The notes under the pieces were generated by a model. The model saw nothing but the letters and a program-made list of their open reading frames with translations, made no database searches and was not told the origin of the DNA. The translations under genes were made by a program, and so were the position numbers. Shown piece by piece: positions 13,646-58,868 of a stretch of DNA of 64,000 nucleotides. The DNA is from a virus, in IMG/VR virus record IMGVR_UViG_3300036760_000306, positions 52,458 to 116,457 of that record. One strand, 5' to 3'. Every line of letters begins with the position of its first letter. The first letter of the stretch is position 1.

Positions 13646-13996
13646 CTATTCCCCAAACAGAGCCTTCTTGAGGGCCGCCTTGGCCTCGGGGTTGCTGTCG
13701 ATGGCGGGCCCGAATATACACCGGAGCTTCTCTCCAAGATAGGCCATGTCGTGCCCCTCGCAGGGCAACGCTACCCCTGAGTGCTCGTTGATCAGTTTCG
13801 GGTCGATGCCCTGCTTAGCTGCCGCGTCCAACAAGTCCACGTACTTGCCCATGAGCCCGTTGAATTCGATGAAGGCGTGTGCCTCGCTTCCGACCTTGGC
13901 CACGAAGCACATCCAGTAGAACTGCTCGTTCAAAGACCGCAGCGTCTGGATGATCTCCGGCTTGTGCCGGACCACTTCATCGTCAGCGTTTTGCAT
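13646..13996 (-). CDS. Hypothetical helical protein
   Basis: 116 residues from the ATG preceded by GGAG (4 nt). Helical, with the conserved-looking segment AHAFIEFNGLMGKYVDLL that I have seen in phage proteins of unknown function. It overlaps the tail of the upstream gene by 14 bp. Confidence 0.65.
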   Translation of the reverse strand: MQNADDEVVRHKPEIIQTLRSLNEQFYWMCFVAKVGSEAHAFIEFNGLMGKYVDLLDAAAKQGIDPKLINEHSGVALPCEGHDMAYLGEKLRCIFGPAIDSNPEAKAALKKALFGE

Positions 13997-14255
13997 AGGG
14001 CTCCGTGTCTTGTAAATGATCCCATACAGTGCGGGTAACCGGCGTGTTGGGACTGAAAAACCAACATGAAATGGAGTCATCTCGGGTTCCAAACCCATGG
14101 GCTTCCGCGCATAACGCCATATCCATGATCCCGGCGTACAAACAAACCCGTCCAAGAACCCAGCGACTGATTCGAGACTGGGGTCCGAACAGAAGACTCG
14201 ACGCATTCAGGAGAGGCAACCATAGTCGCAGCAAACGTCGAGCTTTAAACAACAT
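13983..14255 (-). CDS. Small protein carrying a WDHL C-terminal peptide
   Basis: 90 residues; TAGGAGT sits 4 nt before the ATG. The N-terminus is basic and hydrophobic (FKARRLLRLWLPLLN) and could insert in a membrane. The C-terminus RTVWDHLQDTEP matches the peptide that ends several unrelated proteins in this window. Not otherwise recognised. Confidence 0.6.
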   Translation of the reverse strand: MLFKARRLLRLWLPLLNASSLLFGPQSRISRWVLGRVCLYAGIMDMALCAEAHGFGTRDDSISCWFFSPNTPVTRTVWDHLQDTEPYAKR

Positions 14256-14276
14256 GGTAACTCCTATGTGAAGCGG

Positions 14277-14558
14277 TCACCCTGAGATGCTCTGCATGAT
14301 GCGGGTGAAGCCTTCGAGACAACGGGCCCTGGTGGCCAGCACCTTCTCGAACAGCGTGGGGCTCTCAGCCTGAGCGATCTCCAACAGCCGCTGACCCGCG
14401 AGATGTGCGATGATCGAGGGCTGCTCCTGTTCCGTGTACTGCAACGCTGCCCGGAGGATGGAATCAACCACAAGCTCGTCAGCTTGAGCTTGCCAGTGGC
14501 TGAAGGGCTTGCCGTTGAATCGCTTACGCTTGCGGATGATCTCGTGAAACTGGTTCAT
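14277..14558 (-). CDS. Hypothetical helical protein
   Basis: 93 residues, all-helical, not recognised. Follows the DUF932 gene; a GC-rich hairpin lies between them. Confidence 0.6.
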   Translation of the reverse strand: MNQFHEIIRKRKRFNGKPFSHWQAQADELVVDSILRAALQYTEQEQPSIIAHLAGQRLLEIAQAESPTLFEKVLATRARCLEGFTRIMQSISG

Positions 14559-14573
14559 AGGACACCTAAACGA

Positions 14574-14598
14574 GGGAGGCCGGAAGTGCCGACCTCCC
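14574..14598 (-). terminator. Possible terminator or processing hairpin after the DUF932 gene
   Basis: Inverted repeat of 10 bp with one mismatch (GGGAGG..CCTCCC) and a short loop, followed on the minus strand by a weak T-rich stretch (TCGTTTAG). Termination may be partial. Confidence 0.35.
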
Positions 14599-14612
14599 CC
14601 GTCGGTTGAAGG

Positions 14613-15335
14613 TCAGTTGGTGAGGCTCACGAAGTAGTCGTGGGCCTTGGCGTGGCGGTCGATGACCGTGGCGGGGCTGCCCTTCTTGAGGCCTTCCGTG
14701 ACCGCGTTGTAGAGGCCCCAGATGTTCCGATCCGAGAACTCCACGTGACGGGGAGTTTCCCAGTCCCCGAAGGCCACCGATGCCTGGTGAGGCGTCAAAA
14801 GGCCCTTGCCCATCGCGACACCCAGCAGGGCGTAACCACGGTCCTTGTGGCAGCTCTTGGCCTTCATGGCCTCGACTTCATGCTGGACCTTCTCGAAGCT
14901 CTGCATTGCCGTGCCGACCTGTTCGAGTACGAGGCGCTGAAAGTCCTCCCAGACGTTCGCAGTGTTGCGGCGGACCACCCGGAAGGCATCGCCCGAGAAG
15001 CAGAGGTTGTCGCACACGAAGACGTTGGCTCCGCCGACCAGACCGAGCGCAAGGCTCTTGTCGTAGGACTGGCGCATGCCGATGCTCAGACCCTTCTCGG
15101 AGTCGCCTGTGTCCAGGGTGATGCGGCCGAACAACTGGCTGCCCGCCTTGTTGAGGCCGTAGGACTCGCTCTTGACCTCCAGGCCAAGGTGCTCCCGTGC
15201 GGTGTCACGCAGGAAGTTGATGGCGTCGCCGTACGAGACAGGCTTCCAGGTGTCGGTCGCCTCGGGGGGCGTCACGGCCATGACCTGGGCCAACGTCGTC
15301 TGTTCCGAACCACAATGCAGGATGAGACCGTTCAT
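14613..15335 (-). CDS. DUF932-family phage protein
   Basis: 240 residues resembling the DUF932 family found in phages and plasmids, with the conserved ALGLVGGANVFVCDNLCFSG segment. Biochemical function is unknown; members often sit near DNA metabolism genes. It is the first minus-strand gene after a divergent intergenic region, so it is probably transcribed from 15.36-15.48 kb. Confidence 0.75.
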   Translation of the reverse strand: MNGLILHCGSEQTTLAQVMAVTPPEATDTWKPVSYGDAINFLRDTAREHLGLEVKSESYGLNKAGSQLFGRITLDTGDSEKGLSIGMRQSYDKSLALGLVGGANVFVCDNLCFSGDAFRVVRRNTANVWEDFQRLVLEQVGTAMQSFEKVQHEVEAMKAKSCHKDRGYALLGVAMGKGLLTPHQASVAFGDWETPRHVEFSDRNIWGLYNAVTEGLKKGSPATVIDRHAKAHDYFVSLTN

Positions 15336-15501
15336 TTCTTGCTCCGTCGTTGTCTAGGGTTGAGTTACCTAACTACTACACCGATGAGAGGCGAAACTCC
15401 AGACCTAATTGCAAAAAAGATGGTCCCGATTACGTGGGATCGGTCAAAACTACGAAATCACAGGCAAAATAGTTGAGAAAGATTTGGTGTAGGTGGGCGG
15501 T
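15336..15501. promoter_or_regulatory. Divergent intergenic region
   Basis: 166 bp, A-rich, between the DUF932 gene (-) and the deoxyribosyltransferase-Nudix gene (+). On the plus strand GGTGTA (15486-15491) lies 10 nt before the ATG. A TACACC copy at ~15378 suits minus-strand transcription. No ORF is apparent. Confidence 0.5.
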
Positions 15502-16668
15502 ATGCTCCCCATCTACGCCCTTGAACCGCTGCCCACAAAGATGACCAAGGCCATTTTTTTGGCCGGTCCTACTCCCCGAAAACCCGAAGTCGAGAGCTGG
15601 CGTCGAGATGCCCTGGGGCTTCTCGAATCACTTGGGTATGACGGTCACGTCTTTATCCCCGAACCTGCCGACGGGGTTTGGGCTTCGGACTACACGTCCC
15701 AAGTTGAATGGGAAGAAGCCGCCCTGAATCAGGCGGACCTGATCGTGTTCTGGCTGCCCCGGGATCTGGAGACGCTCCCCGGGTTCACGACCAACGATGA
15801 GTGGGGCGTGTGGAAGGCTTCGGGGAAGGTCCTGTTTGGCGCTCCCGAGGGGGCCGTCAAGGTCCAGTACCAACAGCACTACGCGGAGAAGCACAGGGTA
15901 CCGCAGTTTGACACCTTGCGGGGGCTGTTGCGGGCTGCCGTGACTCGGTTGGGGCCAGGGCGGCTCCGACAAGGCGGGGAGGTCAAGGTGCCGCTCTACG
16001 TCTGGGAGCAGCCCTCTTTCCAGAGCTGGTACAGCTACCAGCAGCACGCGGGCAACGTGCTCAAGGCCGCAGAGGTGCTGTGGACGTTCCGGGTTGGCCC
16101 GAAGCTCGACAAGCTGTTCTGTTGGGTGCTCCGGGTGTCCGTGTACATCACGTCTGAGGACAGGGTAAAATCAAACGAATTCGTGTTGGGTCGCCCTGAT
16201 CTTTCGTCAGTGATCTTGTGGCACCGAGCCCCAACGCTCGCTGAGACCAAGGTGATCCTGATCAAGGAGTTCAGGAGCCCAGCCAGGACGCTTGACGGCT
16301 TCTTGCGTGAAGCGCCCGGCGGCTCTGCGAAGCTCGGGACCGTCACCACGGATCCCATGCTCGTGGCCATCGAAGAACTCCGGGAAGAAACCGGCTTCAT
16401 GATCGAGCCCAACAGGCTTCGTGATCACTCGTTGCGGCAAACCTTCGGCACCCTGTCTTCGGTCGGGGCTTTCGTGTACTCAGCCGAAATTACAGACCTG
16501 GAACTCAAGTTCTTCGAGGATCAAGTTGGCCAAGTCCACGGGGTAGAGGCGGACTCCGAGCGGACCTTCACTGAGATCCACAAGGTCGGGGACTTGCTGG
16601 CCCAGCCGGTAACGGACTGGGCGGCGCTCGGGATGGTTTTTGCTGCGTTGGCCGATGCGATGCGCTGA
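15502..16668 (+). CDS. Nucleoside deoxyribosyltransferase-like / Nudix hydrolase fusion
   Basis: About 388 residues from ATG 15502. The N-terminal ~130 residues (IFLAGPTPR..ESWRRDALGLL, then EWEEAALNQADLIVFWLPR and NDEWG) look like the nucleoside 2-deoxyribosyltransferase-like fold that cleaves N-glycosidic bonds. After a linker, residues ~225-388 form a Nudix domain with a recognisable box (GG..AIEELREETGF). The combination suggests a nucleotide-sanitising or NAD/ADP-ribose-processing enzyme; substrate unknown. First gene of a two-gene plus-strand unit with a dNMP kinase. Confidence 0.8.
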   Translation: MLPIYALEPLPTKMTKAIFLAGPTPRKPEVESWRRDALGLLESLGYDGHVFIPEPADGVWASDYTSQVEWEEAALNQADLIVFWLPRDLETLPGFTTNDEWGVWKASGKVLFGAPEGAVKVQYQQHYAEKHRVPQFDTLRGLLRAAVTRLGPGRLRQGGEVKVPLYVWEQPSFQSWYSYQQHAGNVLKAAEVLWTFRVGPKLDKLFCWVLRVSVYITSEDRVKSNEFVLGRPDLSSVILWHRAPTLAETKVILIKEFRSPARTLDGFLREAPGGSAKLGTVTTDPMLVAIEELREETGFMIEPNRLRDHSLRQTFGTLSSVGAFVYSAEITDLELKFFEDQVGQVHGVEADSERTFTEIHKVGDLLAQPVTDWAALGMVFAALADAMR

Positions 16669-16685: not shown

Positions 16686-17393
16686 ATGTTGATCGGGATT
16701 TCGGGTTTAGCGGGCTCAGGCAAGGACGCGGCGGCGAACTTCCTGGTTGAGGACTATGGCTTCACCAAGGTTGCGCTCGCAGACCCTTTGAAGCGCATAG
16801 CCCAGTATGTCTACGCCTTCACGGACGAACAGCTCTGGGGGCCTAGCCATTTCCGCAACGCCCCAGATGAGCGGTACCCACGGCCTTGTAAGACCTGCGG
16901 TGGTGCTGGTGACAAGGTGCCTAGCAGACAGGAGCCCCTGATCCCTTGTCTGGGGTGTCATGGGGCTCGGGTCACCTATCTTGCGCCACGAGAATGTCTC
17001 CAAAAGATCGGCACAGAGTTCGGCCGCGAGTGCTATCCCAACACATGGGTGGACCTCTGCATCCGAACCTCCAAAGAACTACTAGCTGACAAAGAAGCTC
17101 GGTACGATCAAAAGCATGGTCGATACCGTTCTACAGGCGAGTCTCATAGCAGAGTCCTAGGCGTCGCGGTCCCTGACGTGCGGTTCCTCAACGAAGTCCA
17201 GGCCATCAAGCAAGCGGGCGGCAAGGTGATCAGGATCTCGCGCCCTGGGGCTGGGCTCGATGGTGCGGGTGCCCTCCATACGTCCGAGACAGAACAGGCG
17301 GGGTTACCCGACTCGATGTTCGACCAGGTGATCCAGAACACGGGGACTCTCGAAGAACTTAGGGCTGCGGTCCAGGCGTTCCTCAGCGCTTAA
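16686..17393 (+). CDS. Deoxynucleoside monophosphate kinase with zinc insert
   Basis: A 235-residue P-loop kinase: GLAGSGKD Walker A at residues 7-14 and a family-typical PDVRFLNE segment near 170. It resembles phage deoxynucleoside monophosphate kinases (T4 gp1-like), which make dNDPs for DNA synthesis. Unusually, residues ~65-100 contain a DnaJ-like CKTCGGAG..CLGCHGA insertion that should bind zinc in the lid region. Confidence 0.8.
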   Translation: MLIGISGLAGSGKDAAANFLVEDYGFTKVALADPLKRIAQYVYAFTDEQLWGPSHFRNAPDERYPRPCKTCGGAGDKVPSRQEPLIPCLGCHGARVTYLAPRECLQKIGTEFGRECYPNTWVDLCIRTSKELLADKEARYDQKHGRYRSTGESHSRVLGVAVPDVRFLNEVQAIKQAGGKVIRISRPGAGLDGAGALHTSETEQAGLPDSMFDQVIQNTGTLEELRAAVQAFLSA

Positions 17394-17432
17394 AAAACAA
17401 GAGGCCGCTGGGACGAATCCCGCAGCCTCTTG
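17391..17432 (-). terminator. Terminator between convergent genes
   Basis: A GC-rich hairpin (AAGAGGC..GCCTCTT with an internal CGGGA/TCCCG part) followed on the minus strand by GTTTTTT. It ends the 17452 gene and may also act on plus-strand transcripts from the kinase. Confidence 0.75.
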
Positions 17433-17451
17433 CCTGACCGTGAGCCGAACC

Positions 17452-17784
17452 TCAGTCTTCGCTGGGCTCGTCTTCGTCCTCACCAGCGTCCTCGGAATCG
17501 TCGTCCTTCTTGGACTTCTTCTTCTTGGACTTCACCTCTTTGACCGGAGCTGCGGCGGCAGCCGGGGCAGCTTTCTCTTCCCCAGAGCGCACACGCAGCA
17601 CCTTGTCCACGAGGGCAATCAGGTGATCCGCCGAGTGCTTGTCAGCACCCTCCGGAACGGCGACGGGGCCTGCTTCTGCTTCCAGTTCCGCAGCATAACC
17701 GGCCGCATTGGCGATCTGTCGGTCGTATTGCTTGGCCGCTTGGCAGCGAGTTCGGAATTCAGTTAACTCTTGTGTTGTCATCAT
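17452..17784 (-). CDS. Hypothetical protein with Lys-rich/acidic tail
   Basis: 110 residues from the tandem ATG at 17784. A short helical domain is followed by Ala/Pro, a Lys run (KSKKKKSKK) and an acidic tail (DDDSEDAGEDEDEPSED). Disordered charged tails of this kind suggest nucleic-acid or protein recruitment. The start overlaps the upstream lipoprotein gene. Confidence 0.65.
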   Translation of the reverse strand: MMTTQELTEFRTRCQAAKQYDRQIANAAGYAAELEAEAGPVAVPEGADKHSADHLIALVDKVLRVRSGEEKAAPAAAAAPVKEVKSKKKKSKKDDDSEDAGEDEDEPSED

Positions 17785-18634
17785 TCGCCTCTTGCTTCTG
17801 TTGGGGGATAAGAGAATTCTGCAAAAGTTGATCGAGTAGCGGTCGCCGTTTAGCTCGACCACTCGCAAGCTCTGCTGCCATCACCTTGCTTTTGGCAACC
17901 TTTTCCTGATCGATAGGTAGACATGCGCCAGCATTAGCCGGGTCACGTGGATCACCCCAGTAGGTGTTGGCCATCCTATGCCCAACATTCAGCGGGCAGA
18001 ACTTGCGGGCTACCCCATGGTGGTAGTCCATTTCCCCGCCCCACTGAATGGGCTTACCTGGGACGGTCTCTGGGACTATCCCGCTATAGTAGAGTTGCCG
18101 GACTTGCTCTCGAAACGACGTCCACCCTCTAACCGTAGACTTCCACGTACCCGAACAGCCAGTGGGTATTGATCGCTTAGTCACGGGATCCTTTCCCGTA
18201 CACTCAATCCAACCCTGCGGAACGTCGTCTCCTGTCATCGGCAAGTAACTGATCCAAACCTGACGCAAATCCTTGAAGGGCTTGCGGCGGGTGACCCCCG
18301 ACGTTTGAGAGAACAGTGTTTTCAGTAGGGACTTGTCGGAACGCATCTCGCGCATGTTCTCCAGCGTCTGGAGCAACTTCTGGGCTTCACTGAAACTGAA
18401 TCCGCCTTCACTTACACAGACTTTGGTGAGCCACTCGTTTTCTTCTGCACTCTTTCGTACAGATCTTCGAGGCTCACGCACAGGGATCACGGGTTCAAGA
18501 GGAACCACGGGAACCACGGCCACAAGTGCCGCCGGGGGCGTGTGGTTGGGGACAGCGATAGAGGCAACTTGATCTTGTGCCGCTCCGTTTGAACACGCTG
18601 CCATGAAAAGGATGATTGATACTGACTTCCGCAT
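17759..18634 (-). CDS. Putative exported lipoprotein
   Basis: 291 residues beginning with a signal sequence ending FMAAC, a near-consensus lipobox with Cys14 as the acylation site. A Pro/Val-rich linker (~25-55) precedes a globular part with NEWLTKVCVSEGGF and several Cys and Trp. The EWL..SEGGF pattern recalls lysozyme-like or cell-wall hydrolase sequences, but I cannot assign it. Envelope location is inferred; superinfection exclusion or lysis roles are possible. Confidence 0.6.
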   Translation of the reverse strand: MRKSVSIILFMAACSNGAAQDQVASIAVPNHTPPAALVAVVPVVPLEPVIPVREPRRSVRKSAEENEWLTKVCVSEGGFSFSEAQKLLQTLENMREMRSDKSLLKTLFSQTSGVTRRKPFKDLRQVWISYLPMTGDDVPQGWIECTGKDPVTKRSIPTGCSGTWKSTVRGWTSFREQVRQLYYSGIVPETVPGKPIQWGGEMDYHHGVARKFCPLNVGHRMANTYWGDPRDPANAGACLPIDQEKVAKSKVMAAELASGRAKRRPLLDQLLQNSLIPQQKQEANDDNTRVN

Positions 18635-18930
18635 AAACGTCTCCTGGTGATGGCATCCTTTGAGTGCACAAACCCTCCCTACTCCTTGTCTTCGGATTCA
18701 GATCAGCCACGCTAGTAGCGTCGTGATTAACGCCTTGACTGTGTTGACTACGATTCTGAGTCCCTGGGCTCGATGTGCAATCTTACACTCGTCCGGGTGC
18801 TGTAGAGTACCTTGTAATGTTGTAACAAGAGAACTATCGTAAAAGTTGGCACATTTGTTGCATACCCAATGATCTGAGTAGCCTGCCTCTAATACACCAA
18901 CCGCGCACAGTTTTTGGTGTATACACCCCC
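18635..18930. other. Intergenic region with palindromic GGTGTATACACC
   Basis: About 300 bp with no convincing gene. GGTGTATACACC (18916-18927) is a perfect palindrome, giving a promoter element in both directions; its plus copy is 9 nt before ATG 18931. A second GGTGTA on the minus strand lies at ~18892. A 79-residue minus-strand frame with a few Cys (18698-18937) overlaps all this and I do not call it. Confidence 0.5.
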
Positions 18931-19380
18931 ATGACATCGAAAAGCAATTCGACGAATGCTGCGAGCCACCGGATCCTACTCGGTAAAGACCCGACAGAAA
19001 CTCAGATTAGGTTGTATGAGAATTTCCCCGCCTTTCGGGGTTTTTCGGACAAGACCCTAAATCCTGAGGTCTTGGAGGCTACGATCGTTTTGGGGCTAAC
19101 CTTCGGGTTGGCACGGGATCGAGTCTTCGTGTTAGCTCCGGTAGCACACGAGGACTGGGTACTCGCAGAGTTCAACAAAGTCACAGATCTTGTGTTCAAC
19201 GAGTGCAAGAAGAACCCTAACCGAGTCCGAATCGCCGAAGGTTACGGTAGGCTGTTCAAGAAGCTGGCCATCATGGGGCGGTTGTTGCAGTTCAAGGAGG
19301 AGCCGGTCCGTTGGGTTTCGTTCGGCTTCTCCGCAGAGGATCCGATTCCTGAGTGGATGCCGCAACGTCTACTCAAGTAG
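18931..19380 (+). CDS. Hypothetical protein
   Basis: 149 residues, mixed alpha/beta, not recognised. Its start follows the palindromic GGTGTATACACC element. Converges with the next gene, overlapping by 8 bp. Confidence 0.65.
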   Translation: MTSKSNSTNAASHRILLGKDPTETQIRLYENFPAFRGFSDKTLNPEVLEATIVLGLTFGLARDRVFVLAPVAHEDWVLAEFNKVTDLVFNECKKNPNRVRIAEGYGRLFKKLAIMGRLLQFKEEPVRWVSFGFSAEDPIPEWMPQRLLK

Positions 19381-19786
19381 GCTCGTCGTCTTTGGCCAGG
19401 TGGTCGAACAACGTAACCGGCGGTTGAGCGGGAGGTTGAGCGACCGGCGGTTGAACCGGGGCGACTTCGGGTGTGACGGGTGTCCTGGTAACGGTGGTGG
19501 TTCTGGTTTGGAACAGACCACCACCCCACGGCTGACGGCGCGTCACAGGCACACCAAGCCAGCCGTCAAAAACGTCGTCCATCCTGTCGAAGACCTCCCC
19601 CATTCGGTCGAACACTTCATCTTCGTCACGCCGTTGTAAGGCGCGTATACGTTCCACGTCCTGGGGGACAGTCGGAGGTTGAGCAGGTTCCGGAAGAGGT
19701 GCGGGCTTGGGCCGTGTCCAGAGGTAGATCAGGCACGCCCCCAAGAGGATGCCCGTAACCAGCATACCGATTCCGATCAGGATCAT
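19373..19786 (-). CDS. Membrane-anchored Pro-rich protein with FDHL tail
   Basis: 137 residues: an N-terminal membrane helix (residues 1-23), a Pro-rich linker, an acidic repeat (DEDEVFDRMGEVFDRMDDVFD), then a Pro/Val/Thr tail ending TLFDHLAKDDEPT. The last part matches the recurring C-terminal peptide. A membrane-tethered adaptor is one reading; no family recognised. Confidence 0.65.
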   Translation of the reverse strand: MILIGIGMLVTGILLGACLIYLWTRPKPAPLPEPAQPPTVPQDVERIRALQRRDEDEVFDRMGEVFDRMDDVFDGWLGVPVTRRQPWGGGLFQTRTTTVTRTPVTPEVAPVQPPVAQPPAQPPVTLFDHLAKDDEPT

Positions 19787-19833
19787 CCTCTAGGGTACAC
19801 CAGGCGAAAGCTCTTGTGCGCCACGTACAGTAG

Positions 19834-20430
19834 ATGGCCGCCCTCATGCTTCAAGTCCCCGCCGAAACTGCTCGTGTGCTGCACGAGCTTCCGGTCCCGG
19901 GCAATCGAGAACGTCATGACCCTCATGTGACGGTCATGTATTTGGGCAAGAATCTACCGATCGAGCGCATCGGTGAAATGCTGCCCGTGATCTACGACGT
20001 GACCTCCAAGACGCTGCCCTTCTCGGTGTCCACGAGTCACGTCTCCTGCTTCCCTGGGGGTGATGACGGGGTGCCGGTGATTGCTCAGATCGATTCACCG
20101 GAGCTACATCGCTTCCGAAAGAAGTTAACGCAGGCATTCGAGGCGGCCGACATCCCTTACGACCGGAAGCACCCTGAGTACAAGCCGCACACCACCCTCG
20201 CGTACGATCCTGATCCCGACACGGAAGTGGACCTCGACATCCCCGAAGTCTCGTGGGGGGCCCATGAGCTGGTGCTATGGGGCGCTGACCGGGGCACGGG
20301 GCGGTTGGTGGTCAAGTTCCCGCTGAGCCTACCCAATGGGAAGGTGGCGAGTACCTCGTCTCACGCTGCACTCTACCGAGCGGCCGTGCGGCTCTCACTT
20401 TGGGGACACCGCGATAAGCTTGTCGGTTGA
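19834..20430 (+). CDS. 2H phosphoesterase (2'-5' RNA ligase-like)
   Basis: 198 residues with the two HxT signatures of the 2H superfamily: HVTVMYLG (~residue 30) and HTTLAYDP (~118). Family members hydrolyse 2',3'-cyclic phosphates, 2'-5' linkages or, in phages, cyclic oligonucleotide signals (Acb1). The substrate cannot be told from sequence. The C-terminal ~35 residues (HAALYRAAVRLSLW) are a basic extension outside the fold. Confidence 0.82.
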   Translation: MAALMLQVPAETARVLHELPVPGNRERHDPHVTVMYLGKNLPIERIGEMLPVIYDVTSKTLPFSVSTSHVSCFPGGDDGVPVIAQIDSPELHRFRKKLTQAFEAADIPYDRKHPEYKPHTTLAYDPDPDTEVDLDIPEVSWGAHELVLWGADRGTGRLVVKFPLSLPNGKVASTSSHAALYRAAVRLSLWGHRDKLVG

Positions 20431-20640
20431 TTGCTCGCCACGGCGCAGCATGTTCAAGCAATAGGTGCATTTTGGTACGTGCCGGTCATGTGTGGGGTGC
20501 CGCCATGCGAACCCGCCGGGTCGTGGTTTGGGTCTGCCGCACAGTGGTCCGTCCCCACGGTGGAATATCCAATGGGCCGTGGGTGGCTTGGTAGACCCTC
20601 CTCGGTAGAACCAAGCCCCTGTACTGCTGACTTCGTGCAT
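20395..20640 (-). CDS. Small zinc-ribbon protein
   Basis: 81 residues with a single-ribbon pattern: HWIFHRGDGPLCGR, then HDRHVPKCTYCLNML. The LCG..CxxCL layout recurs at 28039 and 45370 and is common in small phage zinc proteins. Overlaps the convergent 2H gene by 36 bp. Start uncertain. Confidence 0.6.
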   Translation of the reverse strand: MHEVSSTGAWFYRGGSTKPPTAHWIFHRGDGPLCGRPKPRPGGFAWRHPTHDRHVPKCTYCLNMLRRGEQSTDKLIAVSPK

Positions 20641-20699
20641 ACCATTGAATTGTCACAAGAAAATCCATTTTACCACACCACCTTACGTTGTGGGTCCCC

Positions 20700-21374
20700 T
20701 TACTCATCATCTGTCATGAGCAGGTGGTCGAACAGCGTGAGGGGTTTGGGGCCGGTGATTTGGGTGGAGGCCTTGGGGACTACGGTGATGCGGTAGTGCA
20801 GAACTTGGCGCATTTCATCGGGGTGGTACACCAAACCCTTGAAAACATAGCCATCGGGGACAGCTTTGATTCCCAGGCCTCTCTCCGTTTCTACCTGTAG
20901 CTGTGTACGATCTCGGACAGCGTAAACCCACCATACGCCGCACTGGGGGCAGGTCCATAATGTCGTGTTGGGCTGGTAGGTTTCGCCCAAGACTTCAATA
21001 GCCTCCGTCTGAGGACAGATGGAGCATCGCTGCCCCTCAAAGAACGTCTCGGTTAACCTCTGTGCAAGCACCTGAGAGTACACACCTCTTGGAACATGTT
21101 GCGGGCACACCACCTCGGGGTCTTCTTTCCGGGGACGCTCGTACTGCAAAAAGGCACGGTTCCGACAACCTCGTCTGGAGCACACCTGCCAACACTCAGG
21201 GGCGGCTCGCTTGAGCTGCCAGGTGGTGTACTGGCGGTTGAACCCGACGGCTGCCCGTACCCCCGTTAAGCTTACAAACGTTACGGTGGTCCTATCTACT
21301 AGGGCCACAATACCATCGACCCCTGAATGGGTATCGGTCCAGGTTTCTCCAACCAGGGGTAAGGTAAGCGGCAT
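20700..21374 (-). CDS. Multi-zinc-ribbon protein with FDHL tail
   Basis: About 224 residues from ATG 21374 (AAGGA 7 nt upstream). It begins with a beta-barrel-like segment, then has a Cys-rich middle (CWQVCSRRGC, CPQH, CSICP, CPQCGVWW) likely to bind two or three zincs, and ends PLTLFDHLLMTDDE, the recurring C-terminal peptide. Nucleic-acid binding is plausible; function unknown. Confidence 0.65.
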   Translation of the reverse strand: MPLTLPLVGETWTDTHSGVDGIVALVDRTTVTFVSLTGVRAAVGFNRQYTTWQLKRAAPECWQVCSRRGCRNRAFLQYERPRKEDPEVVCPQHVPRGVYSQVLAQRLTETFFEGQRCSICPQTEAIEVLGETYQPNTTLWTCPQCGVWWVYAVRDRTQLQVETERGLGIKAVPDGYVFKGLVYHPDEMRQVLHYRITVVPKASTQITGPKPLTLFDHLLMTDDE

Positions 21375-21395
21375 CTTTTTCCTTTTGTTACCTTT

Positions 21396-33258: not shown

Positions 33259-33905
33259 GCCTCGTCATCTGCGTCATCTAGGGCAGCCCACAAGCCACCT
33301 CCGCTGCCTCTGAACTGATTCTTCGTCATACGTTGAAGGGGTGTGATGGTCTTGAACATGTCTTCACGACCAACATCGTCTGGCACGGTCAGTGTAAAAA
33401 GCATTACGGAATGAGTTTCATCCAGTAGGGTCAGCAGGCGGAGGCCTTCTTTGGGGGCTGGATCGAGGATGAAGCTGAGCCGCCAAACCCCTCCGCCCGC
33501 ACCCTGCTGGTTTTGAAACCCGGTCGCCACGTGGTAAGGCTCGTTCGGAAATGGCTGCTGCGGCTCCTCATCATCAAGGTATGAGTAAGACACATCAATG
33601 AAAGGGCGTGCCCTTCCGATCCTTGTGTAGTCCCGCTCTCTAAGCGCTTGTGCTGCCCGTTCTCTAGCTTCTGCAAGCCGCTCGAAGGTCCGCTTCCCGG
33701 GCAGGATTGTCTCCATGTACTCGTGGGTACCCTGGGCCACTTTCGCTTTTGGGCTAGCCGTGTAGCTGACTTTTCGATTCTGGGGGTGCTCTTGGTGTAG
33801 TAACCCATTAACCTTCCCCTGAATCCCCATGGTCCGGATCACAACAACCGTCGGGCATTCTTCGGGATGTAGTCGGACAGGCCTGCGTGTGACATCAATG
33901 AGCAT
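33255..33905 (-). CDS. Hypothetical protein with LWAAL..DDE tail
   Basis: 216 residues, unrecognised; basic coiled helix around 70-95 and a beta-rich C-terminal half. It ends GGGLWAALDDADDEA, a looser version of the recurring C-terminal peptide. Overlaps the NMNAT gene by 4 bp convergently. GGTGTAGTA lies 6 nt before the ATG. Confidence 0.65.
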   Translation of the reverse strand: MLIDVTRRPVRLHPEECPTVVVIRTMGIQGKVNGLLHQEHPQNRKVSYTASPKAKVAQGTHEYMETILPGKRTFERLAEARERAAQALRERDYTRIGRARPFIDVSYSYLDDEEPQQPFPNEPYHVATGFQNQQGAGGGVWRLSFILDPAPKEGLRLLTLLDETHSVMLFTLTVPDDVGREDMFKTITPLQRMTKNQFRGSGGGLWAALDDADDEA

Positions 33906-35261: not shown

Positions 35262-35278
35262 AAGTAACCCTCAAAGAC

Positions 35279-43491: not shown

Positions 43492-44554
43492 CGGGCCGCA
43501 GTGGTGGCGAGAAAGCGTTCCAGCACCGTGTGGGCAGTCTTGTCCTTTACGGTGGGCTCTTTCATCGAATTGAGGACCTCTGCGAAGTCCTCATCGGTGA
43601 GCTGATCAATCTCTTTGGCCACAGCAGCCATCACGAGCTGGGCCATCGCTTCATCAGCGGCACCATCGTCTTTCTTCTCGGAGGCAATGATCTCAATCAA
43701 GTGAGCTATGCCGTGCCCAACGTGTCCCATCTCATTCAGTAGGTGCAGGTTACCAAGGGACTTCTTCACGGATTTCAGCGCTACGTGCTGAGCCAAGCCC
43801 TTGGTGAACAACCCGGCGGCGACCAAAGGGCCAGAAGCGGCGAAGGCAGCGGCGGCAGCGCCGATCGCCATATGGGTAGCTACCTCTTTGAAAGCAGCCT
43901 TTTGCTTCTTGGTCATCTTGCCGCCAGACAGTACGGCCTTAACGCCCTGCGATGCAGTCTTGTATTCGTGGACCTCATGTTTGGCGGTATCCACGAGGCT
44001 TGAGAGCACCTTCTTGGGGGCCTTCACCAGAGCGTCCTTAGCCTCACCCAGCGCCCTTTTCCGGAATTCACGTTCCCGAAGAAGTGCTTGACCGCTTTCG
44101 GGGCCGCTTCCACGAACTTTGTGGCGGACTCTGAGAGCCCTTTGAACCTAGCCTTCCACGAGTCGAACTTGCCAGCAGGCTTCGCCTGTGGGGCCTCTGG
44201 AGCCTTTGCTTTGGCTGGCGGGGGCGGTGGGGCCTTTGGCTGAGCCTTCGCCTCTGGCTTGGCTTCGGGCTTCTTCTTGGCCTTGTCCGGGATGGGTGGC
44301 GGAGTGCTCTTGGCACCAGCGGGCGGCGGCTGCTGCTTTGGCGTCGTCTTCCCAGCAGGCGGCGGGGGCGGAGCCTTGGGCTGCTTCTTGCCCCCGGGCT
44401 TCTCATCCGGACCGCCTTTGGCCTTGTCCTCGTTGACCGAGTGCTGGGTCTTATCAGCATCCGGGTGAGCCTTAAGGTACTCGTTCAAGGCCTTGTCGGA
44501 GGGGAACTCCTTGGCTTCACGATACCTGTACGCGACTCGTGCTGCGAGACCCAT
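43488..44554 (-). CDS. Polyvalent-type internal protein interrupted by a frameshift
   Basis: Two overlapping frames read as one protein. The first (44554 to ~44070) starts GLAARVAYRYREA, has YLKAHPDADKTQHSV and a long Pro/Lys/Ala linker. The second (~44070 to 43488) is open upstream of its nominal start (RALGEAKDALVKAPKKV) and continues into a membrane-like IGAAAAAFAASGPLVAAGLF and GHVGHGIAHL, ending VLERFLATTAAR. One missing base near 44068-44076 joins them. The make-up matches polyvalent virion proteins; function inferred. Confidence 0.65.
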
Positions 44555-46468: not shown

Positions 46469-46524
46469 GACACACGCCGTCAAACAAGTACGCGCCATGT
46501 GACCGTGAAAGCGTAGGGCTGAAG

Positions 46525-46713
46525 ATGGACGACCCAAACCAAATATGCGTTCGATGCAAAGAGCCTCTCAGCGCACACGATGAAGCCATGAGAAGTACGT
46601 ATCTTCGTTCTTGGGGGCCACTCCACATGGTCCGCCGCGAAACGATTCTGATCTGTCCAACCGCGCAGTTTTTGGCGGAACCCGTTGAGGACGCCGCAGC
46701 AAAGAACACATGA
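46525..46713 (+). CDS. Small Cys-containing protein
   Basis: 62 residues: ICVRCKEPLSAHDEAM at the start, with a further Cys later; probable half zinc ribbon. Weak GAAG precedes the ATG. Confidence 0.6.
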   Translation: MDDPNQICVRCKEPLSAHDEAMRSTYLRSWGPLHMVRRETILICPTAQFLAEPVEDAAAKNT

Positions 46714-46801
46714 TATTCGCCCCAAGCCGATCAAACCCGAAGTCAAGATCGTCTTGACAACCTCCGGTCCCATACCTTGGGATTTAGACGACGGGGACTG
46801 A
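46685..46801 (+). CDS. Possible small protein ending PWDLDDGD
   Basis: A TTG start gives 38 residues with protein-like IRPKPIKPEVKIVLTTSG and an acidic end similar to the recurring C-terminal peptide. It could also be a frameshifted continuation of the 46525 protein. Confidence 0.35.
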   Translation: MRTPQQRTHDIRPKPIKPEVKIVLTTSGPIPWDLDDGD

Positions 46802-46804
46802 AGC

Positions 46805-47002
46805 ATGATCACTATAAAACCACGGCCGCCAGTCGTTCTACCCACACCCTCTGAAAACCGCGAAATTATGTTCCGCGACCACGATGACAAGATCAAGATC
46901 AAGAACCATTTAGGTGAGGTTCGGGAAGCCACTGCGGAAGAAATAGCCGACGTTGAACGAGCGCTAAAGCTGAAAATACTTAAGCCGCACGTCGGCCCAT
47001 AA
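46805..47002 (+). CDS. Small charged protein
   Basis: 65 residues, Pro-rich start then charged helix (ATAEEIADVERALKLK). Not recognised; operon member before pth2. Confidence 0.6.
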   Translation: MITIKPRPPVVLPTPSENREIMFRDHDDKIKIKNHLGEVREATAEEIADVERALKLKILKPHVGP

Positions 47003-47029
47003 AGCCGCTCTCCGAAAGCCGAAACGATT

Positions 47030-47413
47030 ATGAGTAATGCGCCCAAGATGATAATTTGCGTACGTAAAGATCTCAACATGCGAAAGGGCAAGATCGCGGC
47101 CCAAACGGCGCACGCATCCATGTCCTTCCTGGTCAAAGGAAACCTCGCGGGTGCTGTGCTGCACAAGGAGCTGACCGAGGTTGAAGCCGCGTGGCTTTCG
47201 GGTTCGTTCACAAAGATCGTCGTGTACGTTAATTCTGAGGCCGAGCTTCTGGCCCGCATCCAAGCAGGGGAGGCCGCTGGGGTCACGGTACACCCCACCC
47301 ACGATAACGGACTCACCGAGTTCCATGGGGTCAAGACGCTCACGTGCGCTGCATTCGGACCTGATCTGCCTGAGGTGTTGGATCCCCTAACAGGGGGCCT
47401 ACCCCTGTTATGA
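47030..47413 (+). CDS. pth2: Peptidyl-tRNA hydrolase, PTH2 family
   Basis: 127 residues. KMIICVRKDLNMRKGKIAAQTAHA at the N-terminus and THDNGLTEFHGVKTLTCAA near 95-113 match PTH2, which frees tRNA from stalled peptidyl-tRNA. This family is normal in archaea and eukaryotes, and occurs sporadically in bacteria and phages. Links to cca as a tRNA-recycling function. Confidence 0.88.
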   Translation: MSNAPKMIICVRKDLNMRKGKIAAQTAHASMSFLVKGNLAGAVLHKELTEVEAAWLSGSFTKIVVYVNSEAELLARIQAGEAAGVTVHPTHDNGLTEFHGVKTLTCAAFGPDLPEVLDPLTGGLPLL

Positions 47414-47811
47414 ACCTGATGAGCGAGCTTCAGAAAGCCCAGGACAACCTTCACGAGATCTTGGCGGGCATTGAAGATCAACTCACCAAAATCTCCCCCT
47501 ACCCCGCGACCCTACCGATTTACGAGTGGCACGGTCGGGACACGTCTAGCGGTCGTAGGAGCAAGACCCCGGTGGCCTACCTGCACTTCGAGGCCGGGGA
47601 CCTGAGCTTCTCCCAGGTCCCCCGGCCCTACGTCCCAGCAGCGACCTGTTGCTCGCGCTGTCGTACTCCCTGCAAGACCTGCATGGAACAAAACAAGGCC
47701 GCACGTAAACGTTGGGACGCCCGTGAAGCCCTCAAAGCTACCCGGGTCGATGTCCTGGAAGTTGACGACGGGGGTATTCTAGGGGCATCATCCAAGCGTT
47801 GCCTGCCATGA
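47410..47811 (+). CDS. Hypothetical protein with Cys cluster
   Basis: 133 residues; central CCSRCRTPCKTC is a compact zinc or Fe-S-like cluster, flanked by helices. 4-bp overlaps at both ends place it in an operon with pth2. Confidence 0.65.
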   Translation: MNLMSELQKAQDNLHEILAGIEDQLTKISPYPATLPIYEWHGRDTSSGRRSKTPVAYLHFEAGDLSFSQVPRPYVPAATCCSRCRTPCKTCMEQNKAARKRWDAREALKATRVDVLEVDDGGILGASSKRCLP

Positions 47812-47909
47812 AGAAGCGGCTTGAATCCGATTCCAAAGTGACCCCTGAGGCAATCGAAAAAGCGGTTCAGGCTGGCCGCCGCTTCCTTTCCGAATTACAC
47901 CTAGAGTAA
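47808..47909 (+). CDS. 33-residue basic protein
   Basis: KKRLESDSKVTPEAIEKAVQAGRRFLSEL, one long helix. ATGA overlap with the upstream stop; its end overlaps the TAGAG of the next promoter. Confidence 0.5.
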   Translation: MKKRLESDSKVTPEAIEKAVQAGRRFLSELHLE

Positions 47910-47929
47910 TTCATCTCTTCGGTGTAGTA
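47902..47929 (+). promoter_or_regulatory. Phage promoter, class A
   Basis: TAGAG (47902-47906), 14 nt, GGTGTAGTA (47921-47929), 5 nt, ATG 47935. Heads a run of coupled genes to 49206. Confidence 0.7.
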
Positions 47930-47934
47930 GTGCT

Positions 47935-48141
47935 ATGCCCCTACCGCAACGAAAGGAGTGCTGCTTCTGCTTCAAGACCACGCGCTTCTGGACCGCATTA
48001 CCGGACCGCAAGGGCGGAGAGCAGGTGGCGTGCTGCCCACCGTGTTCCAAGCTCCGCACCCCATCGCAGGTGCCATCAAAGTCTGCCTGGTGCGAGGAAG
48101 CGCGTAAGAGGCGTCCCAGCCTCTACCCGGGGCAACCATGA
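47935..48141 (+). CDS. Small zinc-finger protein
   Basis: 68 residues with CCFCFK and CCPPCSK, a CxxC/CxxC site, and a basic tail. Leaderless after the class A promoter; stop overlaps the next ATG. Confidence 0.65.
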   Translation: MPLPQRKECCFCFKTTRFWTALPDRKGGEQVACCPPCSKLRTPSQVPSKSAWCEEARKRRPSLYPGQP

Positions 48142-48431
48142 CCCGCCGTTCCGCAGTCATGCAACTCAGCTCGCAAGAGGTCTTCTGGGTTCCTGAGTCC
48201 AAGTGCGTAGACCTACCGGGGAAGCCGCTTAGGGTGTGGACCCTGGCGGCCCACTCGGATCCCAACACGAAGCCGGTGTTGCCCATCATCCCACAACACG
48301 GGTTCAACGCCTTCCTCGAAGATGAGCGGCATGACTGGACCTACCACATGCTCGGGGGAGAGCCCTGGCTCAAGTACAACAGCCGGATGCGAGATCACTC
48401 GGTCTGGATTCTCTGCGAGTTCAAGCCGTGA
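48138..48431 (+). CDS. Hypothetical protein
   Basis: 97 residues, beta-rich with several Trp (VFWVPESKC.. HDWTYHMLGGEPWLKYN). Not recognised. Coupled on both sides by 4-bp overlaps. Confidence 0.6.
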   Translation: MTRRSAVMQLSSQEVFWVPESKCVDLPGKPLRVWTLAAHSDPNTKPVLPIIPQHGFNAFLEDERHDWTYHMLGGEPWLKYNSRMRDHSVWILCEFKP

Positions 48432-48856: not shown

Positions 48857-49206
48857 CGGATCACGTCTACCCCGAGCTACCCCCGTGCAATGAATGCGGC
48901 ATGTGTTGCACCACGCACCTGGAGTTCGGTCGCGGGGGCTTTGTACGGCTCACCGACGCCGACTACGAACGGCTGCCCGAGAAGTACCGGCTCAAGGTCG
49001 TCACCGAGTCTGAGTTGAACGTAGACCGGCTTGGGGTCAAAGGGTCCCCTGGGGTCGGCTACCGTTGTGTAGCGCTCAAGGGCGTTGCTGGGCACAAGAC
49101 CTCGTGCGAAATCTACCAGGACCGCCCAACCCTGTGTCGCACGTTTGAACGTGGATCCAAAGATTGCCGCAAAGACCGAGCCCTATGGTTCGCCAACCAG
49201 CGTTAG
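48853..49206 (+). CDS. YkgJ-like Cys-cluster protein
   Basis: 117 residues. CNECGMCC near the N-terminus, then TSCEIYQDRPTLCRTFERGS and a last Cys match the CxxCxxCC zinc/iron-chelating family (YkgJ). The metal and role are unresolved in the family. Ends the class A operon; overlaps the convergent gene by 4 bp. Confidence 0.8.
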   Translation: MTDHVYPELPPCNECGMCCTTHLEFGRGGFVRLTDADYERLPEKYRLKVVTESELNVDRLGVKGSPGVGYRCVALKGVAGHKTSCEIYQDRPTLCRTFERGSKDCRKDRALWFANQR

Positions 49207-49679
49207 TCGTTCTCAAGGTGATCCCAAAGGGTCACCGGGTCTGGTTGGTTGGGGCGTGCCGGTAGATTACGCATTCTGGAAAACGGCGGGGGCGGGGGTT
49301 GCTGGTCATCCTCAGAGCGTTCCCCGAACCGCGTGAGTGCTTCGATCACTTCACGTGACACCGTGGCATTTGGGACCACACGGATCCTAGTCCCAGACGG
49401 GTGAACCCGCACATCGTTAAACCCGATCTCAGCGGCTAGCGCGAGGATCAGATGTACGAGCCTCTGGTCACAATCCCGGGAACCCGCTACGTGATCCTCG
49501 ACATCAAGCCACCCGTCACGGTCATAACGCGGTGGGTTCACCAGGAGCCGACGCAGGTAGCTTAGCGCCAAGACATGGGAACGTCCCGTACGACGGTAGT
49601 TCTCTGTCCCATCGTAGAGCCAGTCCAGGGCCTCCAGGGCCCTGCGTTGAGGCGGAGTGAGCGAGAAGGGTGGCGGCAT
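49203..49679 (-). CDS. Hypothetical protein with LWDHL tail
   Basis: 158 residues. Helical N-terminal half (RRALEALDWLYDG.. LSYLRRLL), alpha/beta second half, Pro run, and the end DPVTLWDHLEND. GGTGTA precedes the ATG by 9 nt. Unrecognised apart from the tail. Confidence 0.65.
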   Translation of the reverse strand: MPPPFSLTPPQRRALEALDWLYDGTENYRRTGRSHVLALSYLRRLLVNPPRYDRDGWLDVEDHVAGSRDCDQRLVHLILALAAEIGFNDVRVHPSGTRIRVVPNATVSREVIEALTRFGERSEDDQQPPPPPFSRMRNLPARPNQPDPVTLWDHLEND

Positions 49680-54035: not shown

Positions 54036-54491
54036 TTGGCGAGCAATTATGGAAGAAGATACACCAAGGTGCTCATCAACCTACTCGGCCCGATCATCCT
54101 GCATCCGTACGCGGACCGGGATGAACTCAGCTTCTTGACCAAGGACACGAGACCCAAGAGCCTCGTGACAGCGATCCACGACGGCCTTGTGTACGAGCAA
54201 CAAGGGGGATCAAGGCACGTCTTGATCGAATCGTATTGGCAAGCCCAAGAAGGGGTGATCCGTACGGCTGTACCGCTCAGTCAAGCTCGGGGTCGCAAAT
54301 ACCACTGCGGGCACGTTTGGGATTCCGAACACGGGGGTTTCAACGTCAACAACCGCATTGTCTCAGTGCGGCTCGATCAAGACATCCTGATCGTCGCCCC
54401 TACTGGCGGGCAACCACTGATGCTTGACCTCGGGCTAGAAATGGAACTCACGCAAGAAAAGCGGACGCTCTGGGATCTTTTGGCTGACTAG
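54036..54491 (+). CDS. Hypothetical protein with LWDLL tail
   Basis: 151 residues from a TTG (an in-frame GTG at about codon 12 is possible). Beta-rich ([18 protein letters not shown].. [16 protein letters not shown]) and ends [10 protein letters not shown]. Not recognised apart from the tail. Confidence 0.6.
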
Positions 54492-55403: not shown

Positions 55404-55823
55404 ATGTTCCCACGCCGACGCAAAGTGACCACTAAGTGCAAGTCCTGTGAACTCCCGGGAGAGTATCGCGGAGTTCTGTACCGGGTGCTGCAACAACACG
55501 AGTCAGCACAAGCACTCAGGGTGTTCCTCAAGAAGAACCCCTCGGAGGATCGCCGTAACCACATGGTCAAAGGACCACACCTAACCCGGCGGATCACCGA
55601 GCCCATGTGCCAGCGGCACTACATGGAAAACACCTTCGGGCTCTGGCCTTACGCTTGCACCAAGAAATGCCGAGCCGAGACGCAGAAGAAGTCAAGCATC
55701 GTGCTACGGGAAGAACACTTGATCGTCTGGCTCGACATGGGGCCGATCTTCGGGGACGTGAAACCGCTTTGCCCGTGGTGCGGGAAGCGACGCCTCAAGA
55801 GCTACGGGGGTCAGATCACGTGA
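55404..55823 (+). CDS. Multi-Cys hypothetical protein
   Basis: 139 residues from ATG 55404. CKSCELPGEY, CQRHYMENTFGLWPYACTKKC and CPWCGKRRLKS suggest two zinc sites. Not recognised. Confidence 0.65.
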   Translation: MFPRRRKVTTKCKSCELPGEYRGVLYRVLQQHESAQALRVFLKKNPSEDRRNHMVKGPHLTRRITEPMCQRHYMENTFGLWPYACTKKCRAETQKKSSIVLREEHLIVWLDMGPIFGDVKPLCPWCGKRRLKSYGGQIT

Positions 55824-56139
55824 TTAGACTCTTGTCAGGCTCATCTTCTTTCAAGTGATCCCAAAGCGTTCTAGGGGTCGGGGCCGGAGGCTCCAACAGC
55901 TTGGGTGGTTCGACCGGCGGCTCAAGCACTGGCGGGGTGGGGGTCGCAACCAAGTAGGTGATGGTACCTCTAGAGTCCATCAAGCAGAGACGGCCCAGCT
56001 CGTCTAGGAACATGGACGACTGCCCGGTGGGCGGGGTCCGGATGCTGTTTGGCAGGATACGTTGTAATCGGAAGCGGTAAACGGACCAGTGGTGGCCGCA
56101 CGCCATCACATCGAAAGCGATGTCTTTCTCAAATAGCAT
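55816..56139 (-). CDS. Hypothetical protein with LWDHL tail
   Basis: 107 residues. A beta-rich N-terminal domain (~1-70), Pro linker, then PRTLWDHLKEDEP and seven more residues. Convergent overlap of 8 bp. Confidence 0.65.
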   Translation of the reverse strand: MLFEKDIAFDVMACGHHWSVYRFRLQRILPNSIRTPPTGQSSMFLDELGRLCLMDSRGTITYLVATPTPPVLEPPVEPPKLLEPPAPTPRTLWDHLKEDEPDKSLIT

Positions 56140-57514: not shown

Positions 57515-57546
57515 TAGGTTCCTCGTAGTTTGAGACGACGTTCTTA

Positions 57547-57552
57547 TACACC
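57547..57552 (-). promoter_or_regulatory. GGTGTA promoter of the HU gene
   Basis: GGTGTATAA 32 nt upstream of ATG 57514, with a normal ribosome-binding site in between. Confidence 0.45.
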
Positions 57553-57575
57553 AAAATCAGAGCTTCGGTCCACCA

Positions 57576-57707
57576 CTAAGCAGCCGAGCAAAGAATTCTG
57601 CCCCCTGGAGGGCCTTCATGTCTCGCATAGGTACGCAGGCGATCCAGAGACAAGACGATCCTACCTGGTTCTTTACAGAACGGACAAGGCTTAAGATTCA
57701 GACTCAC
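57576..57707 (-). CDS. Lar-like zinc-ribbon protein
   Basis: 43 residues starting GTG, overlapping the previous stop as GTGA. NLKPCPFCKEPGRI is the start of Lar-family ribbons (restriction alleviation in Rac prophage); a single Cys near the end may complete the site. Shorter than Lar (~60); the restriction role is inferred from similarity only. Confidence 0.55.
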   Translation of the reverse strand: MSLNLKPCPFCKEPGRIVLSLDRLRTYARHEGPPGGRILCSAA

Positions 57708-58345
57708 CGCCCGGCCAACCACTCTTGGAAGCGTTCCTCGACCCGCTTCTTGGCCACGGCCATCGTGTGCTGCCCTGAGAGGTGCTCTAGCCTTGTGTCA
57801 GGCTGCGATCCGAAGGTGGCGTCGTAGAGCCTGTCATCGCCATCATCGGACACCCGCACGACCGCTACAGTACCGATCACAATTGGACCTACCCAGCACT
57901 CTTCCAACATAGGGCTGCGTGCCACCCACGAGAATCTGGAGCCCTTCACAGGCTTAGAGGGCTTGAGCAGCGCTGGGGACTTGGCCGAAAGTTTGACAAC
58001 GATCAATTCCTCGATCGCGTGTACGACCTGATCTGCTGCCTCGTGAAGGCTACCAGGCTCTCCCGATGCAACGAGGGTACGTAGCCGCATGGCCAAGAGA
58101 TCATGAGCGTGGGACTCCGGGGGCCCGGACATCGAGGCCATCCGATTCAAGACCCCCTCGACTCGGGTCAACCGAGCACTCTGCCGCAGCTTTCGGAACT
58201 TCCTCAGCGCCTCTTCGGCAGCGGTACCGTATTCGGGTCCTCGGTAATTCTCGCACGAAAGAGAATCGGTAACCACGTGGGCCGAATCACTCCCCACCTC
58301 TCGGGCTTTACGCCGGATCAGCTCATCGACGGTCCAGTTTGCCAT
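57704..58345 (-). CDS. Hypothetical protein
   Basis: 213 residues from ANWTVDELIRRK. Helical first half with a basic heptad-like segment, strand-rich middle, and end RVEERFQEWLAGR. GGTGTAGTA 6 nt before the ATG. Not recognised. Confidence 0.65.
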   Translation of the reverse strand: MANWTVDELIRRKAREVGSDSAHVVTDSLSCENYRGPEYGTAAEEALRKFRKLRQSARLTRVEGVLNRMASMSGPPESHAHDLLAMRLRTLVASGEPGSLHEAADQVVHAIEELIVVKLSAKSPALLKPSKPVKGSRFSWVARSPMLEECWVGPIVIGTVAVVRVSDDGDDRLYDATFGSQPDTRLEHLSGQHTMAVAKKRVEERFQEWLAGR

Positions 58346-58354
58346 GCCCTCTAC

Positions 58355-58360
58355 TACACC
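58355..58360 (-). promoter_or_regulatory. GGTGTA promoter element
   Basis: GGTGTAGTA ending 6 nt before ATG 58345. Confidence 0.5.
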
Positions 58361-58376
58361 GAAAACCGGGGTCAAT

Positions 58377-58868
58377 TCAAGAGTCGTTCAATTTGTCCCA
58401 CAGGGAAGTTGGCGGCGGTTCTTCCTTGGGCTCGTCAAACATTGCCTCATCGCTCAACTGGACCAGCACCGGGGCGTTCCGTAGGGGGCACCAGTCAGGG
58501 GTTCCGCTCTGGGGCACCGGCCTTTCCATGAGTCTAGCGCACCTCTGAATAGAGCAGAACGGGCAGCTCTGGCACCCGTCCACCGACTGAGACCCGACTT
58601 GCAGTGTTCGCAAGCGAGGGATCTCAGTGGCCCAACACGTAGGGCACGCTGACTGCATCCGGCCATCCGCCGAGATGCTCGCCTGGAACCGTTCCCCGCA
58701 GGACACGCAAGCGTGCGTCCACAGAGGGCCGTCTTCCTCCGGGGTCGGAGGGGCCGCTTCGTTTTGAAGATGTTCAGTCGCGGCGTACTCGCGGCAGTCC
58801 GAGCACTCCCCTCGTCTCAGCCGCAACTCATCCTCGACTTCGACGCCACAGCCAGTACAGAAGGGCAT
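58377..58868 (-). CDS. Multi-zinc-ribbon protein with LWDKL tail
   Basis: 163 residues with at least four CxxC pairs (CTGCGVEV, CSDC, CVSCGERF, CPTC, CQSCPFC) and the end TSLWDKLNDS. Resembles the 20700 protein in design: zinc ribbons plus the recurring tail. Confidence 0.7.
   Translation of the reverse strand: MPFCTGCGVEVEDELRLRRGECSDCREYAATEHLQNEAAPPTPEEDGPLWTHACVSCGERFQASISADGRMQSACPTCWATEIPRLRTLQVGSQSVDGCQSCPFCSIQRCARLMERPVPQSGTPDWCPLRNAPVLVQLSDEAMFDEPKEEPPPTSLWDKLNDS

Follow-up and report, generated by a model that had tools for sequence, protein, structure and literature searches.

Eight proteins encoded in the window, the 64,000-nucleotide stretch analysed here (positions 52458-116457 of the 116,457-bp IMG/VR virus contig IMGVR_UViG_3300036760_000306, hereafter G000), end in a peptide of the form [TSN][LV][FW]D[HLK]L followed by a short, mostly acidic tail. 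We conclude that this peptide is very probably a docking motif for one common partner, and that the tag system is real, extends across a family of huge phages and is new in its extent. The partner may be the phage's own beta-type sliding clamp, an assignment by analogy that we make tentatively and with less than even confidence. The eight tails had been picked out in an original prediction, and all of them are indeed encoded, together with a looser form at 33255:

13983-14255, minus strand: 90-residue open reading frame (ORF), tail TRTVWDHLQDTEPYAKR; tag TVWDHL at about 14013-14030
19373-19786, minus strand: N-terminal membrane anchor, Pro-rich linker and TLFDHLAKDDEPT; tag at about 19397-19414
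20700-21377, minus strand: zinc-finger protein, tail TLFDHLLMTDDE; tag at about 20721-20738
33255-33905, minus strand: looser tail GLWAALDDADDEA, at about 33279-33296
37502-38032, plus strand: tail NLFDHLNDA; tag at about 38003-38020; the start may be 37502 or 37739
49203-49679, minus strand: tail VTLWDHLEND; tag at about 49215-49232
54036-54491, plus strand: beta-rich protein, tail RTLWDLLAD; tag at about 54465-54482
55816-56139, minus strand: small protein with Pro-rich linker and TLWDHLKEDEPDKSLIT; tag at about 55852-55869
58377-58868, minus strand: zinc-ribbon protein, tail TSLWDKLNDS; tag at about 58389-58406

The looser tail at 33255 is real, being conserved as GLW[AG]A[LV]..DD in four genomes (GLWAALEDEDDL, GLWGAVLDDDF, GLWAALTEDDV). 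A second looser form that had been proposed, 'PWDLDDGD' near 46685, lies in a 49-codon frame without ATG and was dropped. The gene at 20700 probably starts near 21377 rather than 21575.

G000 is a genome fragment. A conserved AAA protein retrieved about 33 loci on source contigs of up to 529 kb, from which it follows that the window contig and its relatives (300-529 kb) are one family of huge phages. Eight further contigs were examined whole, namely G001 (208 kb, with a polymerase 86% identical to that of G000), G002 (416 kb), G003 (107 kb), G005 (252 kb), G013 (323 kb), G014 (529 kb), G020 (411 kb) and G023 (398 kb). None of the contigs is known to be complete, and the absences reported below are bounded by this sample. 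No close isolate phage was matched in a nucleotide search of one G000 region, and the family-A DNA polymerase of G000 gave distant matches only. Gene calls came from a home-made hexamer caller that misses part of the real small genes, so that all counts are approximate; its second version missed four of the eight tagged window ORFs (13983, 20700, 49203 and 58377). Each of these four occupies an otherwise empty gap, and orthologues with the same tail exist for 20700, 49203 and 58377. The ORF at 13983, which ends TVWDHLQDTEPYAKR with the tag 9 residues from the C-terminus and sits between a gene ending at 13996 and one starting at 14277, lacked a homologue in each of six other genomes with which it was compared and is therefore the weakest of the eight.

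As had been proposed, the motif is strongly C-terminal, and far more frequent there than internally or in shuffled proteomes. Six called genes of G000 match [LVIM][FWY]D.[LMI] within their last 20 residues, where shuffled proteins gave 0.3 (maximum 2 of 200) and the internal rate of the same pattern predicts 0.6. The relatives G002 and G023, which were not used in defining the motif, serve as an independent test: 45 C-terminal matches were found in the former against 1.7 in shuffled proteomes (at most 7), and 31 in the latter against 1.75. When C-terminal three-residue patterns were ranked de novo, the top pattern was LWD in G002 (39 against 0.78 expected from protein interiors, P 2e-51) and W.HL in G023 (34 against 0.34, P 3e-55), and the tag was also the top pattern in G003, G005 and G014. 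Across the two near-complete relatives the tag core is thus 50-100 times commoner at C-termini than in interiors (P about 1e-50). Six-frame translation of G002 placed 38 of its 45 [LIVM][FWY]DH[LIM] occurrences no more than 14 residues from a stop. Tag carriers make up 45 of the 618 called genes in G002 and 49 of 524 in G023 (up to 9%).

Nearly all the proteins that bear the tag are otherwise unrelated, as the original prediction had held, and full-length homology does not account for their shared ends. With the tail removed, the bodies of 152 tagged proteins (eight contigs) group into 103 families unrelated to one another, and those of the 45 in G002 alone into 43. Pfam searches of 120 tagged proteins revealed no shared domain, only scattered zinc ribbons, one KOW, two NinG-like proteins and one RNase HII. 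Zinc ribbons are found in 18% of tagged proteins, against 7% among small proteins at large; membrane anchors at the N-terminus are at the background rate (5%), and other bodies are coiled coils or beta-rich folds. The linker before the tag is rich in proline, as had been noticed (12% vs 5.6%), and the 0-15 residues that follow the tag are 37% acidic. For the universal tagged family, an AlphaFold2 (AF2) model (mean predicted local distance difference test, pLDDT, 82) has a folded body, with linker and tag at low confidence; this fold has no significant counterpart in the PDB, and the resemblances are confined to local KOW/Tudor-like barrels, including NusG. In a few proteins the tag lies N-terminally or internally: G002:177858, which has two copies, carries it N-terminally, and in one conserved G002 protein it is an internal insertion absent from the orthologues; these copies behave as a linear motif does. 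The largest body cluster, with 18 members, is a set of tandem diverged helical paralogues at 53-73 kb of G023 (L084-L085), individual in their N-terminal part and with the C-terminal tag in common. A tagged protein of G003 (L021:5377-6441, TMWDRLG) shares 47% identity with the putative major capsid protein of the relatives over about 58 residues.

Conservation is centred on the peptide itself. Between G000 and G001 orthologues, 36 of 36 tag positions are identical, against 77 of 120 in the preceding 20 residues. The G001 orthologue of the 19373 protein (G001:126023) keeps TLFDHL but only 5 of the 20 residues before it, and orthologues of the 49203 protein in G001, G002, G020, G023 and G014 (TAWEHLLDEG) likewise retain the tag on a diverged linker. 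The 37502 gene has orthologues in five genomes with NLFDHL, TLFDHL, TIFEHL and DLFAHL; those of 54036 end TLWDLLAD (G001), TLWDHLKL (G002) and DLWDHLVS (G023). The 55816 protein runs on past its tag to ...EPDKSLIT, and its relatives G002:92998 and G023:387014 retain TLW[DE]HL, while the G001 orthologue of 58377 has an identical tag. The DNA flanking the tags has an identity of 0.26-0.30, like random sequence, and the codons vary synonymously: 28 LWDHL tags of G002 use 19 different 15-mers, and 20 of G023 use 16. Random flanks and synonymous variation together point to selection on the peptide and not to a DNA repeat.

The form of the tag differs between lineages. Residue 5 is H in 92 tails and R in 2 in one lineage (G000, G001, G002, G020, G023), and H in 8 and R in 31 in the other (G003, G005, G014), a contrast whose Fisher P of 1e-20 overstates independence, the sequences being related by descent. 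Position 2 is Leu in G002 and G023, Ala in G005 and Ile/Val in G003. The dialects (LWDHL, T[AVL]W[DE]RL and T[AFV]W[DE]QL) coincide with clades. Orthologues of the 20700 protein, present in seven genomes, take the dialect of their own genome, with TLFDHL, TLFDYL, TLYDYL or NLFDHL in the H lineage and SVYDRL (G014) or TAYDRL (G005) in the R lineage. One shared partner would be expected to produce such a concerted change of residue across the unrelated proteins of a genome. A DNA-pattern search of 28 contigs, which is a survey and not a test, some frames being tiny and some loci overlapping, found T[AFV]W[DE][QH]L in G018, G022 and G025, TVWERL in G007 and T[IV]WDHL in G015, with 20 of the 23 matches in those loci no more than 14 residues from a stop. 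A stringent LWDHL DNA pattern matched only G002 and a close relative in IMG/VR, and a stringent R-dialect pattern gave no match there.

That the peptide would be a docking or sorting tag for some hub, as originally predicted, is strongly supported in respect of docking by the unrelated bodies, the divergent linkers, the conserved core with its acidic end and the dialects; binding to one hub is what we infer from these features. The consensus [TSN]-[LVIA]-[WFY]-[DE]-[HRQ]-[LI], usually followed by acidic residues, would act as a short docking plug and not as a domain, borne on a flexible linker by which many unrelated small accessory proteins could reach one socket. A literature search found no published LWDHL/LFDHL tag, nor such a tag in huge phages, and the statement that no tag of this form had been described is fair for the sequence. 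Its architecture, however, has a close precedent in the clamp-binding tails of T4-type phages, where interchangeable hydrophobic-acidic C-termini on divergent linkers bind gp45 (PMC2988020; PMC7892883), and this precedent makes the clamp the leading candidate for the partner. The tails of gp43, gp55 and gp33 in T4/RB69 also pair a hydrophobic-acidic C-terminus with a variable linker on functionally different proteins. RB69 gp43 ends KKASLFDMFDF, in which SLFDMFDF resembles the TLFDHL of the phages described here, and gp55 of T4 and RB69 carries SPSLDFLYE near its end (SLDFLYEDDN). If the socket were the phage clamp, the tagged zinc ribbons, KOW-like barrels, coiled coils and membrane anchors would be held at replicating phage DNA, in parallel with the tethering of gp55, gp33 and gp43 on gp45. 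Bacterial clamps and PCNA also receive many clients in one pocket through a short plug, as a 'tool-belt' (PMC9690074), and the tag resembles the bacterial QL(S/D)LF motif and the PCNA-interacting peptide (PIP) box Qxx[IL]xxFF in being a short peptide plug.

A sliding clamp is present in the more complete relatives, as the original prediction's naming of the clamp among possible hubs would require, and fits by analogy. A beta-type clamp of 418-440 residues is encoded in G002, G005, G013, G014, G020 and G023. It was first spotted by reading the core genes and then confirmed by profile and fold: a profile search of the PDB returned beta clamps only (best E 6e-4), and Foldseek matched an AF2 model (pLDDT 80) to bacterial clamps (E 4e-18), the best 50 matches all being sliding clamps. 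The beta-clamp profile PF02767 and the gp45-type profile PF09116 gave no match. A 390-residue neighbour of the AAA protein was also considered as a clamp and had no PDB match. Adjoining the clamp gene are a DnaX/delta'-like loader and a flap endonuclease (FEN), so that clamp and loader are both encoded by these phages, as in T4. FEN is a classical clamp client, and its C-terminus here reads [SP][IVL][LIM]..FF in nearly all members, in the same register as the tag (S[IL]L.AFF); the G020 tail, SLLDAFFP, is close to that genome's tags (NLFDHL, TLFDHL). The same FEN/5'-3' exonuclease (G002 L028:13771-15555, minus strand, and orthologues), with its PIP-like C-terminus S[IL]L.AFFP, has an N-terminal extension of about 300 residues that looks NusG-like (NGN/KOW) by eye, without Pfam confirmation. 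The clamp-bearing contig IMGVR_UViG_3300009149_000012 (L196) comes from the same metagenome as G003 and may be another part of that genome.

Several observations weigh against the clamp as partner. No tag was found on the family-A DNA polymerase, ligase, RecA, primase or helicase, nor at the C-terminus of PolA in any contig examined, and the replicative polymerase is the protein that should need a clamp most. T4 has a handful of clients that include the DNA polymerase; here there are up to about 50 and the polymerase is excluded, and the clamp is of beta type, unlike gp45. Unlike QL[SD]LF and the PIP box, the tag has neither Gln nor FF, position 1 being T/N/S/D and the core W/F-[DE]-[HRQ]-L. 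The phage clamp is itself diverged (10-15% identity), and the fragment G000 carries no clamp gene. The FEN tail is unchanged across both dialects, with no H/R shift. A second acidic motif, roughly [DE]..[FML]L[DE] ([DE][DE]...[FML]L[DE]; DDLSAFLAL, DNFQDMLDQV, LNEEELANMLDE), occurs at the N-terminal end of PolA in most contigs, at the C-terminal end of a single-stranded DNA-binding (SSB)-like protein and in a coiled-coil protein, whose acidic tail has it repeatedly (G002 46493-47383 and 47558-48385, L029, for the latter two genes), and could be the true clamp motif. RNase HII, considered as a tagged client, has a similar tail only in G020 (PDLFDLLAEVD) and a few others, and was not counted because the resemblance is sporadic. 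It is the untagged polymerase, the second acidic motif and the indifference of the FEN tail to dialect that keep our confidence in the clamp below even. The tag, which behaves as a clamp-binding or cargo motif does, is a candidate member of the clamp-binding class, one of whose defining features, a polymerase that bears the motif, is absent here.

The distribution of tagged genes also bears on hubs of other kinds. The core regions of G002 (0-65 and 315-417 kb; replication and presumed structural genes) contain no tagged gene among 161, against 45 of 457 elsewhere, while one 20-kb array has 61 tiny accessory genes, 26 of them tagged. It is possible, if doubtful, that the tag is an addressing code in which some 50 unrelated small proteins share a non-clamp phage socket, plug and socket having co-diverged into H, R and Q dialects; new accessory genes would then join by gaining six codons. 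We consider it unlikely that the hub is another phage protein such as a scaffold, a compartment or factory, or a head-core protein that packages cargo for injection. The tagged proteins are small, accessory, mutually unrelated and in that respect cargo-like, the core regions are free of them, and a linker with a short tag is typical of cargo signals; yet no hub gene was identified in these contigs, and the membrane anchors on some tagged proteins would be odd for head cargo. T4 internal proteins, small and mutually unrelated, do share a short capsid-targeting sequence as a common signal, but that signal is N-terminal and proteolytically removed. The tag lies at C-termini and in some proteins inside, and no cleavage motif was seen at its border.

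A host protein, for instance RNA polymerase, a host clamp or a ribosome-associated factor, is an improbable hub. Dialects that mirror hosts would be expected where lineages differ in host, and zinc ribbons and KOW-like barrels suit transcription factors. In ten contigs, of which several are incomplete, PF04997 had no match and no multisubunit RNA polymerase of the phage's own came to light; the host RNA polymerase is therefore probably used. Multisubunit RNA polymerases of their own are a lineage marker of the nucleus-forming phages (Chimalliviridae), and this marker is absent from the same ten contigs; the shell protein was not searched for. With up to 49 tagged proteins per genome and dialects that follow phylogeny, however, a co-inherited phage hub is the simpler explanation. 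Still less probable is that the peptide is a handle for the phage's ClpX-like unfoldase or a host protease, the tagged proteins being adaptors or timed substrates. A ClpX-like AAA+ protein, mostly with an N-terminal zinc finger and itself untagged, is present in all nine contigs, and ClpX does receive adaptor tails on flexible linkers (SspB). As with ssrA/SspB tails, a terminal peptide would serve an AAA+ hub, but its sequence is different, and a C-terminal degron needs a fixed distance from the carboxyl end, whereas the tag lies 0-15 residues from that end and has some copies at N-termini or inside proteins. It is scarcely credible that a mobile or structured DNA element, such as a repeat or terminator, lies over the gene ends and that the peptide has no function: the clustering of tags in tandem small-gene arrays might suggest this, but it is contradicted by unrelated flanks, synonymous codons and a strictly kept reading frame, with no DNA conservation beyond the codons, as well as by the concerted amino-acid change between dialects and a peptide that outlasts the turnover of its linker.

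If docking on one partner is correct, a six-residue code would mark, among the hundreds of small uncharacterised proteins in a huge phage, those that act at one place. In some genomes 7-9% of the genes would so gain a function by association, and the short-motif network would be unusually rich in clients for a virus. A short tail could draw orphan phage genes into one system, and comparing the dialects would be a direct way, genetic as well as biochemical, to find the socket.

Outside the window, at 43510-44016 of G000, a further tagged gene ends VSLFGRLLADGDDE; its family is present in all nine contigs analysed. Also to the left of the window, G000 12709-15900, 16780-21072 and 35195-37516 hold inteins with LAGLIDADG endonucleases, which sit in an SNF2 helicase and the ClpX-like protein, and a long DnaB-like helicase that exceeds its orthologues by about 900 residues. 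Within the window lie a tRNA nucleotidyltransferase-like gene (36092-37276), a protein whose catalytic core is that of a eukaryote-type topoisomerase I (IB) (291-3476) and a D12 adenine methylase (4259-5209).

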